In this document: positions 14,733 through 52,667 of the stretch, piece after piece | Position numbering within the stretch: position 1 is the first letter of the stretch | Layout of the letters: the number at the start of each line of letters is the position of its first letter | Assembly (NCBI RefSeq): GCF_023503965.1 | Contig: NZ_CP097298.1 | Span: 2,187,001-2,251,000 of the forward strand | Reading direction: 5' to 3' | Length of the DNA stretch: 64,000 bases | Origin: Brevundimonas albigilva | GTDB lineage: Bacteria > Pseudomonadota > Alphaproteobacteria > Caulobacterales > Caulobacteraceae | Translations under genes and position numbers: made by a program | The notes under the pieces: model-generated | What the model was told of the DNA's origin: nothing | Seen by the model: only the letters and a program-made list of their open reading frames with translations | Databases searched by the model: none

Positions 14733-14746
14733 TTTCCCGTTCCGCC

Positions 14747-14866
14747 CATCTCGGCGAAGGCCGGGATCCGGTCGTGTCGCACGGCGCGATGTCCGGGATG
14801 GCGGTTGAAGACCACACGGCGCCGTTGGCGCGCCCAAAGCGCTGGGTCCCGGCTTTCGCCGGGATG
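14747..14866. repeat. Short intergenic element with 23-bp imperfect inverted ends
   Basis: Fills nearly the whole glyQ-glyS gap. The left arm 14747-14769 (catctcggcgaaggccgggatcc) and right arm 14844-14866 are inverted copies differing at only a few positions, enclosing about 75 bases. The arm contains the CGGCGAAxGCCGGGA core common in dispersed alphaproteobacterial palindromes. It has no coding capacity. It could be a MITE/REP-type element or form a long hairpin in the glyQS transcript. Confidence 0.7.
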
Positions 14867-14888
14867 AGCGGACAGACTTGAGACCCCG

Positions 14889-17069: not shown

Positions 17070-17077
17070 TCGCTTTC

Positions 17078-17114
17078 GTCATTCCGGGTGCGCCCTGCGG
17101 CTGCCCGGAATGAC
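17078..17114. terminator. Palindromic hairpin between convergent glyS and SDR genes
   Basis: A perfect 11-bp stem pairs gtcattccggg (17078-17088) with cccggaatgac (17104-17114), loop 15 bases. It lies nine bases past the glyS stop and eight before the convergent SDR stop, so it may act as a two-way terminator. It lacks a strong T tract. The GTCATTCC...GGAATGAC ends resemble the dispersed palindromes at 48.2 and 48.65 kb. Confidence 0.6.
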
Positions 17115-17121
17115 GAGGATT

Positions 17122-45292: not shown

Positions 45293-45408
45293 GATCGGTC
45301 TCCTTTTCAGGAAGAAGAGGGTTTCTTGGCAAGGGTTGTCAATCCTTGCCATCTTTCACACGGTCGCGACGGAAAACACAGTGTGAAAGGTATGAATCGT
45401 GTGAAATC

Positions 45409-45470
<62 letters not shown>

Positions 45471-47443: not shown

Positions 47444-48163
47444 CTAACGCGCCCAGTCGCCCACGGCCGCCTGCCACAGCGTCATGGCCGCGATGGCGGC
47501 GGTGTCGGCGCGCAGGATGCGCGGGCCCAGCGACACGGCGGTGGTGAAGGGCAGGGCCCGCAGGCGCTCGCCCTCCTCGGGCGAGAAGCCGCCTTCCGGA
47601 CCGATCAGGATGGACCAGGGCCCTTCGCCGGCGTCGCGCAGGGCGGCGACCGCCGGCGCGCCGCCGGTCTCGTCGCAGAACATCAGCCGGCGGCCGTCCC
47701 CCCAGCCGTCCAGCAGCGCGTCCAGCCGGATCGGATCGTCGACGGCGGGCACGTCCAGCCGTCCGGTCTGTTCGGCGGCCTCCTCGGCGATGGCGTCCAG
47801 CCGGTCCAGGCGGATGCGGTCGGCGTTGGTGCGGTGCGTCAGGACCAGCCGCACGCGCTTGGCGCCCAGTTCGGCCGCCTTTTCGACGATGGTCTCGACG
47901 CGCGCCTTCTTCACCACGGCGACGATCAGCTCCAAGTCGGGGCCGTAGGCCTGGGGGCGCACCTGTTCCTCGGCGCGCAGGATCACGCCCTTCTTCAGCA
48001 CCTCGGCGACGGTGCAGCGCCACTCGCCGTCGCGGCCGTTGAACACCAGCAGGTCGTCGCCCGCCTTCAGCCGCATCACCTGGGTCAGGTAGCGCGACTG
48101 GTCGAGGGTGGGGGCGACGGGGGCGGCGGGGGAAAGCGGTTGGGCGACATGGAGACGGATCAT
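47444..48163 (-). CDS. rsmE: 16S rRNA (uracil1498-N3)-methyltransferase
   Basis: 239-residue SPOUT-fold enzyme that methylates U1498 of 16S rRNA. The N-terminal PUA-like part has LTQVMRLKAGDDLLVFNGRDGEW; the SPOUT part has KKARVETIVEKAAELGAKRV, LIGPEGGFSPEE (about 186-197) and SLGPRILRADTAAIAAM, both highly conserved SAM-site motifs. First gene of the rsmE-channel-gshA run. Confidence 0.96.
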   Translation of the reverse strand: MIRLHVAQPLSPAAPVAPTLDQSRYLTQVMRLKAGDDLLVFNGRDGEWRCTVAEVLKKGVILRAEEQVRPQAYGPDLELIVAVVKKARVETIVEKAAELGAKRVRLVLTHRTNADRIRLDRLDAIAEEAAEQTGRLDVPAVDDPIRLDALLDGWGDGRRLMFCDETGGAPAVAALRDAGEGPWSILIGPEGGFSPEEGERLRALPFTTAVSLGPRILRADTAAIAAMTLWQAAVGDWAR

Positions 48164-48192
48164 CAGCCTACATGACCTGAGGGCGGGCGCTT

Positions 48193-48230
48193 GTCATCCC
48201 GGCCGCAGCGAAGCGGAGAGCCGGGACGGG
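48193..48230. repeat. REP-like palindrome, copy A
   Basis: A 38-base element starting GTCATCCC and ending GGGACGGG; TCCCGGC and GCCGGGA form the stem around cgcagcgaagcggaga. Copy B at 48644-48681 is the same sequence family in the opposite orientation, so the pair encloses the GIY-YIG gene. It starts 29 bases before the rsmE start region and ends 14 bases before the GIY-YIG stop. Confidence 0.75.
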
Positions 48231-48244
48231 ATGCAGCTGACAAT

Positions 48245-48577
48245 CTAGGCAAGCCCGGTCGGCGTCGCCGAACCGGGCTGAAGGCGCGTCCGCACCTCGC
48301 CGTAAAGATCCAGCCAGCGGGGGTTGTCCTTTTCGACCAGCGCGAACTTCCATTCCCGCAACCAGCGCTTGATGCGCTTTTCCCGCAGGATCGCCTGGTC
48401 GATGTATCGATGGGTTTCGTACCAGACCAGTTGGTCGATGCCGCGTTCCGCCGTGTAGCCCGGGATCAATCCCGATTTATGCTCGGCCACCCGGCGCACG
48501 ATGTCGTTTGTCACGCCGACATAGAGATAGCCGCACGGGCCGCTGGCGAGCAGATAGACGTAGAAGCATTGGGTCAT
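48245..48577 (-). CDS. GIY-YIG nuclease-domain protein (UPF0213-like)
   Basis: 110-residue single-domain GIY-YIG protein. FYVYLLASGPCGYLYVGVTND contains the two catalytic strands (YVYLL and YLYVG in place of GIY/YIG), Arg in DIVRRVAEHKSG, then the LVWYETHRYIDQAILREKRIKRW helix with the catalytic-type Glu (quoted span split by its role). No extra DNA-binding domain. The ATG at 48577 is chosen since the domain begins there. Such proteins are widespread and of unknown function. Inverted palindromes flank it on both sides. Confidence 0.88.
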   Translation of the reverse strand: MTQCFYVYLLASGPCGYLYVGVTNDIVRRVAEHKSGLIPGYTAERGIDQLVWYETHRYIDQAILREKRIKRWLREWKFALVEKDNPRWLDLYGEVRTRLQPGSATPTGLA

Positions 48578-48643
48578 GACACCGTCTCCCGGCGCAACCC
48601 TTGGGGGTTGTCCGGGAGCGGTCAAGGGGATGGTTTGGCTGGT

Positions 48644-48681
48644 CCCGTCCCCGATCTTCGCTGCGCTTCGTCGGGGATGAC
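48644..48681. repeat. REP-like palindrome, copy B (inverted relative to A)
   Basis: Reads CCCGTCCCCGA...TCGGGGATGAC on the plus strand; its complement, GTCATCCCCGACGAAGCGCA then GCGAAGATCGGGGACGGG, aligns with copy A over its whole length, with the stem base changed from GGC to CGA and compensating changes on the other arm. It lies between the GIY-YIG start (48577) and the acyl-CoA dehydrogenase stop (48696). Compensating stem changes suggest that the hairpin itself is conserved. Confidence 0.75.
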
Positions 48682-48695
48682 AAGGAAGGGTGCGC

Positions 48696-49858
48696 CTACA
48701 GCGTCCGGGCGATCAGCAGCTTCATGATCTCGTTGGTGCCGCCGTAGATGCGCTGGACGCGGGCGTCCTTGTACAGCTGGGCGATGGCGTATTCGTTCAT
48801 GTAGCCATAGCCGCCGTGCAGCTGCAGCATCTCGTCGATGGTCTCGCCCTGGATGTCGGTGACCCAGTATTTGGCCATCGAGGCGGTGGCGGCGTCCAGC
48901 TGGCCCTTCAGGTGCAGGCCGATGCAGTGGTCGACGAAGACCTTGGCGACGGTCAGCTTGGTCTTGACCTCGGCCAGCTTGAACTGGGTGTTCTGGAAGT
49001 CGAGGATGCGCTTGCCGAAGGCCTTGCGCTCCTTGACGTAGGCCAGGGTCGCTTCAAGGCCGCGTTCGGCGGCGGCGACGCCCTGGACGGCGATGTTCAG
49101 CCGCTCCTGCGGCAGCTGTTGCATCAGCTGGACGAAGCCCTGGCCCTCGGTCCCGCCGATGATGTTGTCGCCGGGGACCTTCACCTCGTTGAAGAACAGC
49201 TCGGAGGTGTCGTTGGCCTCCATGCCGATCTTGTGCAGGTTGCGGCCGCGCTCGAAGCCTTCGGCGCCGTCGGTCTCGACCACGATCAGCGACGTGCCCT
49301 TGGCGCCTTCCGACGGATCGGTCTTGGCCACCACGATGATGAAGTTGGCCAGCTGGCCGTTGGTGATGAAGGTCTTGGAGCCGTTGACGACATAGCCGTT
49401 GCCGGACTTCACCGCCGTCGTCTTGACGCCCTGCAGGTCCGACCCGGCGCCCGGCTCGGTCATGGCGATGGCGCCGACCAGTTCGCCGGATTGCAGGCGG
49501 GGCAGCCAGCGTTGCTTCTGCTCCTCGGTGCCGTAATGCCAGATGTAGGGCATGACGATCGCATTGTGCAGCGAAATGCCGAAGTGGTCGGCCCCTTCCA
49601 GCCCAGCTGGCGCATCAGCACGACCTCGTGGCGATAGTCGCCGCCCATGCCGCCGTCTTTCTCGGGCATCGACAGGCCCAGCAGGCCGTCGGCGCCGGCC
49701 TGGCTCCACAGGGCGCGGGGCACGCTGGACGCGGCGATCCACTGCTGGACCTTCTCCGGCGGCGCGTGCTCGTCGATCCATTTGCCGACGGAATCGGAGA
49801 AGAGGGTGATCTCTTCTTCCTGCATGAAGGCGGGGTCGGGGCTGTTGAGGATGTTCAT
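48696..49858 (-). CDS. Acyl-CoA dehydrogenase, frameshifted as sequenced
   Basis: About 387-residue FAD-dependent dehydrogenase of fatty- or branched-acyl-CoA oxidation. The N-terminal helical domain (MNILNSPDPAFMQEEEITLF) runs to VVLMRQLGWKG. After the break come ISLHNAIVMPYIWHYGTEEQ, AIAMTEPGAGSDLQGV (FAD motif), NGSKTFITNGQLAN, ERLNIAVQGVAAAERGLE, the QLHGGYGYMNEYAI region and VQRIYGGTNEIMKLLIARTL. One G added in the run complementary to 49592-49595 rejoins the frames (WKGADHFGIS). Electrons would go to ETF and the ETF-QO at 7.97 kb. Confidence 0.94.
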
Positions 49859-52620: not shown

Positions 52621-52634
52621 GTAAGCTTCACGCG

Positions 52635-52667
52635 CGCCGCGCCGCGCCGCGCCGCGCCGCGCCGCGC
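52635..52667. repeat. Pentanucleotide tandem repeat (GCCGC)n
   Basis: About six or seven copies of gccgc/cgcgc in register between the MerR operators and the DoxX terminator. Noncoding simple repeat, probably prone to slippage and to assembly error. Confidence 0.8.

Follow-up and report, generated by a model that had tools for sequence, protein, structure and literature searches.

In the genome of Brevundimonas albigilva (G000; one contig of 3.21 Mb), a small stand-alone gene for a GIY-YIG nuclease lies between two inverted copies of a hairpin, and of the two genes that adjoin this unit, one encodes an acyl-CoA dehydrogenase and the other an RNA methyltransferase of the RsmE type. A repeat search across the whole window (the 64,000-nucleotide stretch of DNA that we analyzed) found the two hairpins as an inverted match of 42 nt with 83% complementarity (48190-48231 and 48643-48684). 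The features of interest, in window coordinates, are:

48191..48227, + strand: type B REP hairpin downstream of the nuclease gene, with the TTGTC tag outermost and the tail toward the gene
48245..48577, - strand: intact gene for a stand-alone, UPF0213-like GIY-YIG nuclease of clade B, 110 amino acids (from PF01541, 1zg2, the alignment, and dN/dS)
48250..48284, - strand: inner hairpin within the 3' end of the open reading frame (from folding)
48584..48622, - strand: inner hairpin in the interval from the start codon to the upstream REP (from folding)
48647..48683, - strand: type B REP hairpin upstream of the nuclease gene, with the tag outermost
14742..14871, no strand: type A doublet, REPIN-like, with a degenerate left half (the right half matches the pattern; the left half was identified by eye)
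17077..17115, no strand: symmetrical CGTC-tagged hairpin, type D-like (from sequence comparison)

The stop codon is 17 bp from the downstream hairpin and the ATG is 69 bp from the upstream hairpin, which agrees with the original prediction of a 110-residue GIY-YIG gene bracketed by inverted copies at most 70 bases away. By eye, two type B doublets from another genome (L289 and L290) contain inner hairpins that resemble the one at 48584..48622. Relatives of the repeat near 14.75 and 17.08 kb had been taken as a hint of dispersal, but they are a type A doublet and a type D-like hairpin instead. Since these are other repeat types, they are no evidence for dispersal of the type B element that flanks the gene. 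The type of the doublet at 14742..14871 pairs with a clade A nuclease elsewhere in this genome (G000:C1:1116913), not with the nuclease in the window. Despite the type D-like hairpin at 17077..17115, there is no clade D nuclease among the PF01541 matches of G000.

We considered whether the hairpins belong to a known RNA family and rejected this, as a search of Rfam with positions 48100-48800 gave no match up to E = 1. The window also contains two short tandem arrays: ten copies of the hexamer TCGCCG at 45407-45466, which in one frame reads as a run of Ser-Pro, and a perfect array of seven CGCGC units at 52633-52667.

The protein belongs to the GIY-YIG family by its match to PF01541 (E = 7e-13; 49.1 bits, where the cut-off is 22.6), and it weakly matches the solved UPF0213 protein 1zg2 (E = 3e-4). 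No NCBIfam family matches it at E = 0.001. In an alignment of 11 sequences that includes the window protein, Y9, Y20, R30, H34, E67, and N86 are invariant (in this numbering, the alignment's first residue precedes the ATG). We take these to be the putative catalytic or active-site residues of the nuclease. Among four clade B orthologues, dN/dS ranges from 0.08 to 0.16; by this sequence measure, the clade B nuclease is shown to be under purifying selection.

By direct reading, compensated changes distinguish the two window copies of the hairpin at two positions of the stem (G-C to C-G and C-G to A-T). Of the 13 stem pairs of type B, the six outer ones are largely fixed by our search pattern and the seven inner ones are not, so the rate of pairing over all 13 (91%) is inflated. 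Across the 73 distinct 37-nt copies among the rows listed, the seven inner pairs form in 83% of cells, as compared to at most 32% if the pairing is slid and to a mean of 63% (maximum 67%) in 1,000 shuffles of the columns, which are a generous control because the type B copies are related. Up to five of the standard pair types occur at a single position. The compensating changes that were claimed for the two arms are thus supported for the type B family, while the window's own copies form just 5 and 4 of the seven inner pairs.

Flanking repeats beside other nuclease genes

To see how often such genes are flanked by repeats, we examined 41 genomes from the genus. These contain 135 matches to PF01541, of which 95 are stand-alone genes and 40 are in long UvrC-type frames. 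For each gene, we scored the best inverted match between its 250-bp flanks, with a threshold of 40. Inverted flanks were found for 41/95 stand-alone genes, for 1/760 displaced controls with the same geometry, and for none of the eight UvrC-type genes that we fetched (of 40). This confirms that the bracketed nuclease is a real observation that is far from chance. It also indicates that genes of the UPF0213 type are flanked more often than chance would give. The concern that the palindromes might be equally common beside unrelated genes did not hold against displaced windows and the few UvrC-type genes.

Two of the 95 stand-alone matches (G026:C169:8000 and G006:2129632) were judged by sequence not to be UPF0213-like and were removed. 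Using regular expressions for each type of repeat, we found a repeat near 87 of the other 93 genes, with repeats on both sides of 54 and on neither side of 6. We do not accept these counts as proof, because the patterns were derived from the same flanks in which they were counted. We therefore split the genomes into halves and repeated the test, so that the repeats sought beside each gene came from the half that did not contain it: 82/93 genes had such a repeat within 300 bp, versus 9/279 pairs of distant windows. The arrangement is not always a bracket, as many loci from clades B, D, and E have a doublet on one side of the gene.

We also examined loci from named organisms, namely the best 80 of 521 that were confirmed in a scan of public genomes. 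Because only the best 80 of the 521 were used, this sample is biased towards close relatives: the closest are from Brevundimonas, with up to 90% protein identity. After dropping 3 of the 80 with too short a flank, 52/77 loci had inverted flanks, as compared to 0/770 controls. Among these best 80 of 521, the positives were 7/11 loci labelled Brevundimonas (a few of which are contigs of genomes that were already in the genus sample) and 45/66 others. Those that scored 40 or above came from Pseudomonadota, Planctomycetota, Nitrospirota, Ignavibacteriota, Thermodesulfobacteriota, and a Magasanikbacterium, again within the best 80 of 521.

Stable folds immediately outside an open reading frame would also be expected of bidirectional terminators or mRNA-stability elements, and the hairpins might be merely that, unrelated to the activity of the nuclease. 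We consider this very unlikely. The controls mostly lack hairpins (1/760 and 0/770 for displaced windows; 0/8 for UvrC-type genes), and, as described below, the type of repeat tracks the clade of nuclease across non-syntenic sites and the same repeats are scattered as doublets.

In a class-wide sample of returned loci, in which the best E values were taken first and no genome was represented more than once, 1 of 25 was dropped because of a short flank. Inverted flanks were found for 11/24 of these genes and for 2/552 mismatched pairs of flanks, as well as for 0/35 displaced controls and 0/3 UvrC-type genes. The other 13/24 genes scored below 40, and the positives include repeat types that look unrelated. 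At three of the class-level loci (L299, L295, and L304), the nuclease is flanked by other repeats, such as TCATTGCGAGCGTAGCGAAGCAATCC in L299 and CATCCTGAGCTTGTCGAAGGATG in L304. Repeats of these kinds are presumably common in bacterial genomes. Their presence at the three loci hints that the partnership reaches past the CGTC types.

Repeat type and nuclease clade

Given clade names that were assigned by regular expressions on the N-terminus, we compared the clade of each nuclease in the genus to the type of repeat beside it. Clade A nucleases have type A repeats (23/24), clade B have type B (13/13), clade C have type F (16/16), and clade D have type D (17/18). The smaller clades show pairings as well: G with F repeats (4/4), F with F (4/6), and H with H (3/3). 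Of the six clade E nucleases, five have E repeats and four have D repeats. Among the three genes outside the named clades, one has an A repeat.

When repeat labels were placed on a tree of the nucleases (84 rows; E was the label for any gene with D as well as E repeats), five changes sufficed for six labels, which is the minimum, while 300 shuffles of the labels required at least 43 changes (mean 49.3). This was a quick tree with few columns and long-branch warnings, and 2 of the 93 rows were left out.

Orthologous loci inherit their repeats by descent, so we split the pairs of genes by synteny. Among 4,010 non-syntenic pairs, the proportion that share a repeat rises with protein similarity: 0% at similarities below 0.3, 5% at 0.3-0.4, 7% at 0.4-0.5, 28% at 0.5-0.6, 80% at 0.6-0.7, 97% at 0.7-0.8, and 100% above that. 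Random windows share repeats in 0.6% of 537 cases. Similarity and sharing are also correlated for pairs within a genome (rho = 0.40, p = 9e-6, 115 pairs). As an alternative to recognition of the repeat by the nuclease, non-syntenic loci could share repeats because the unit moved as a whole.

G000 itself illustrates the pairing. Its PF01541 matches comprise four GIY-YIG genes that stand alone and a fifth match within a long UvrC-type frame. On reading the loci, all four stand-alone genes adjoin hairpins, each of a different type: A around G000:C1:1116913, E beside 1106300, F around 841671, and B in the window. The gene at G000:C1:841671 (L006) is frameshifted, with a domain match that stops at position 41 of 78 and the remainder in another frame; it retains F-type repeats on both sides, so it appears to be a decaying unit. 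In clades A and C (such as L038 and L109), the 3' end of the nuclease's open reading frame runs through the downstream repeat, whose translation gives the protein a C-terminal tail, which resembles DWVPAFAGMSG in some clade A proteins and is DPRVKPEDDGE in clade C.

Copy number, doublets and gap occupancy

If nuclease and repeat are partners, then genomes that encode a nuclease might have more copies of its repeat. With p values that are optimistic because the genomes are not phylogenetically independent, type A repeats have a median of 17 copies where a clade A nuclease is present (18 genomes) versus 5 where it is not (23 genomes; p = 6e-4; p = 0.003 after removing the copies in the nuclease's own flanks), and type B repeats have a median of 10 copies where a clade B nuclease is present (11 genomes) versus 0 where it is not (30 genomes; p = 3e-5; p = 0.0045 once the flanking copies are left out in the same way). 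Tested against the other clade, and subject to the same caveat, the copy numbers show no such association (type A versus clade B nuclease, p = 0.22; type B versus clade A nuclease, p = 0.90).

The type A repeat has 11 copies in G000 and up to 77 in its relatives. The exact pattern for type B has 4 copies in G000, of which two are at the window locus, and up to 48 in relatives. Another of the G000 copies, at 2680047 (L278), has a diverged inverted partner by reading, and there are few type B doublets away from the nuclease in this genome. In G002, G003, and G015, there are just two copies of type B, both beside the nuclease. In two genomes in which no stand-alone nuclease was found (G019 and G023), each of these two types is present in one copy at most. 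On the other hand, G002 has 45 copies of type A and no clade A nuclease was found, and in G035 and G038 repeats are present and no stand-alone nuclease was found.

Copies of type A are often in pairs. Among the matches listed for G000, G005, G020, and G035, 54/64 copies are paired, and all 27 pairs have their tails inward; in 20 of these pairs, the copies are 90-103 bp apart. Two pairs among these listed matches enclose a nuclease, with the copies 345 and 361 bp apart. By eye, a stretch of 20 nt that runs inward from the tail is common to one doublet in G000 and to the repeat arm upstream of the clade A nuclease.

We then compared the contents of the same intergenic gap across genomes. For the gap upstream of rsmE, which has the acyl-CoA dehydrogenase on its other side (about 48164-48700 in the window; L136-L165 in relatives), 30 loci were returned from the 41 genomes. 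Four contain a clade B nuclease, one contains a clade A nuclease, one has a type A doublet alone, one has type A repeats and what reads by eye as the remnant of a nuclease, and one has an F-type doublet. Three are empty (19 bp from the end of the aligned protein), ten contain other DNA, and in nine the dehydrogenase was not found. Because the units differ between species, this gap looks like a hot spot for insertion. In a second gap, from 12 chosen relatives of G031, three are empty, three have a clade A nuclease, two have an F-type doublet, two have a type A doublet, one has half of a doublet, and one was not classed. A third gap, in 12 chosen genomes, is empty in eight, contains a clade E nuclease in two, an F-type doublet in one, and an E remnant with an F doublet in one.

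The different repeat types within one gap argue for separate insertions; single cases may instead reflect loss. In comparisons of filled and empty gaps by eye, the junctions were not clean and we did not find a target-site duplication.

Because REPIN-like doublets and variation in occupancy resemble the products of RAYTs, at least as described in part of PMC8049555, a RAYT or another transposase might spread the repeats and the nuclease gene might be a passenger. But PF01797 (RAYT), which is the one transposase family that we searched for, was found in only 1 of the 41 genomes and was not found in G000, so we rejected a RAYT as the spreading agent. Also, a passenger gene would not be expected to show clade-specific pairing, and in the relevant section of PMC3733652, CGTC repeats are reported next to transposase genes in only a few, fortuitous cases. 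Overall, this scenario seems highly improbable.

The same patterns bear on another explanation, in which the nuclease has a host function and does not spread the repeats. It would cut repeats in single-stranded DNA that is incoming or replicating, and so modulate recombination or natural transformation, while the flanking repeats would allow the gene to be gained or lost by homologous recombination. Purifying selection on the nuclease (dN/dS of 0.08-0.16) fits with this, as do the two genomes that keep repeats with no stand-alone nuclease found (G035 and G038) and the work from 2025 that reportedly describes the Ssn nucleases of Neisseria. By itself, however, a host function leaves unexplained the tails-inward doublets, the dependence of copy number on the cognate nuclease, and the differing types of repeat and nuclease within one gap. 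We consider it a possible but rather doubtful account.

The proposed unit and known systems

Comparative evidence strongly supports a partnership between these nucleases and their repeats. As originally proposed, a GIY-YIG nuclease would act with its own REP-like hairpins much as a RAYT does, and this is favored by the controls, the cognate pairing, the dosage, and the variation in occupancy. We think that the locus is probably a nuclease-REP unit, in a partnership analogous to RAYT/REPIN, in which the nuclease makes nicks and repair spreads the hairpins. The two inverted copies, with tags outermost and tails inward, would be the sequence that the bracketed nuclease recognizes. Most likely, the nuclease would bind and nick its cognate hairpin once it is exposed as a single strand, which could occur on the template for the lagging strand, during repair, or in incoming DNA. 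Nicking and repair would then spread the pair of hairpins, either with the nuclease gene or as a REPIN-like doublet without it. From the comparisons above, we infer sequence-specific cleavage, a preference for single strands, and spread of the repeats that is driven by the nuclease.

More broadly, GIY-YIG nucleases might be the replication enzymes of CGTC-type REPs and REPINs across bacteria, which would make these a second class of mobile element that lacks a transposase; we would put this at a little under an even chance. In such an element, the nuclease would nick its own hairpin and host repair would copy doublets, with or without the gene, into intergenic gaps. Our results suggest that a large class of repeats in bacterial genomes has its missing partners in GIY-YIG nucleases, and that short repeats may spread with just a nuclease. 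Having a clade-specific nuclease as a candidate partner makes the question of which enzyme acts on transposase-less CGTC-type REPs directly testable, and the many natural pairs of enzyme and hairpin provide material for reading a recognition code.

The closest analogy in architecture and dosage is RAYT/REPIN, as described in part of PMC8049555. Like REP/REPIN-RAYT systems (REPtrons), our nuclease genes are flanked by inverted REPs of an enzyme-specific type, there are inverted doublets scattered elsewhere, and genomes that carry the enzyme hold more of the repeats (PMC8049555 and PMC3733652, in the portions that describe these features). The nuclease family thus has both the flanking REPs of its own type and the REPIN doublets elsewhere that mark a REPtron. 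It differs in its enzyme: REPtrons have a Y1 HUH tyrosine transposase (the RAYT), whereas the window protein is a GIY-YIG nuclease.

CGTC-tagged REPs predominate in the alphaproteobacteria and lack a dedicated transposase, according to sections of Di Nocera et al. 2013 (PMC3733652). Our hairpins are comparable to this superfamily. By the description there, the tag of these REPs is CGTC or TGTC and their tail is mostly CCA, and both window copies carry TGTC, one of the three tags that qualify (CGTC, TGTC, or CCTC). In other respects type B does not fit: the description has a stem of 8-9 bp that opens with a paired AT, a loop of 4-5, and mostly CCA, while type B has an outer stem of 7 bp that opens with T-A, an unpaired A before it, a second inner stem, and no CCA tail, so that its stem is longer and in two parts. 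The tag of type A is GCTC. Judging by the text descriptions that set the families apart, types A and B fit none of the CGTC REP families (PMC3733652). GIY-YIG is absent from the main text of that paper, and the available parts of a phylogenomic study of GIY-YIG (PMC1564403) do not mention UPF0213, YhbQ, COG2827, or palindromes.

Among the matches listed in our literature search, the titles and the openings of the abstracts include no report of GIY-YIG nucleases paired with REPs. However, Chenal et al. (Nat Commun, 2025) are said to describe Ssn, which are GIY-YIG nucleases that cut single strands at specific sites and have cognate multicopy sequences. This study reportedly covers cleavage of single-stranded DNA and transformation in Neisseria, and widespread homologues of Ssn are said to have different cognate sequences. 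The class of enzyme would then already be known, and part of the pairing may have been reported as well, so it is doubtful that the arrangement is undescribed, as had been claimed. As is reported for Ssn, the protein here is a small GIY-YIG nuclease encoded on its own, and its putative cognate sequence is repeated in the genome, though in few copies in G000. What may go beyond that work here is the pairing within a single genus, the doublets, the dosage, and the comparison of occupied and empty sites.
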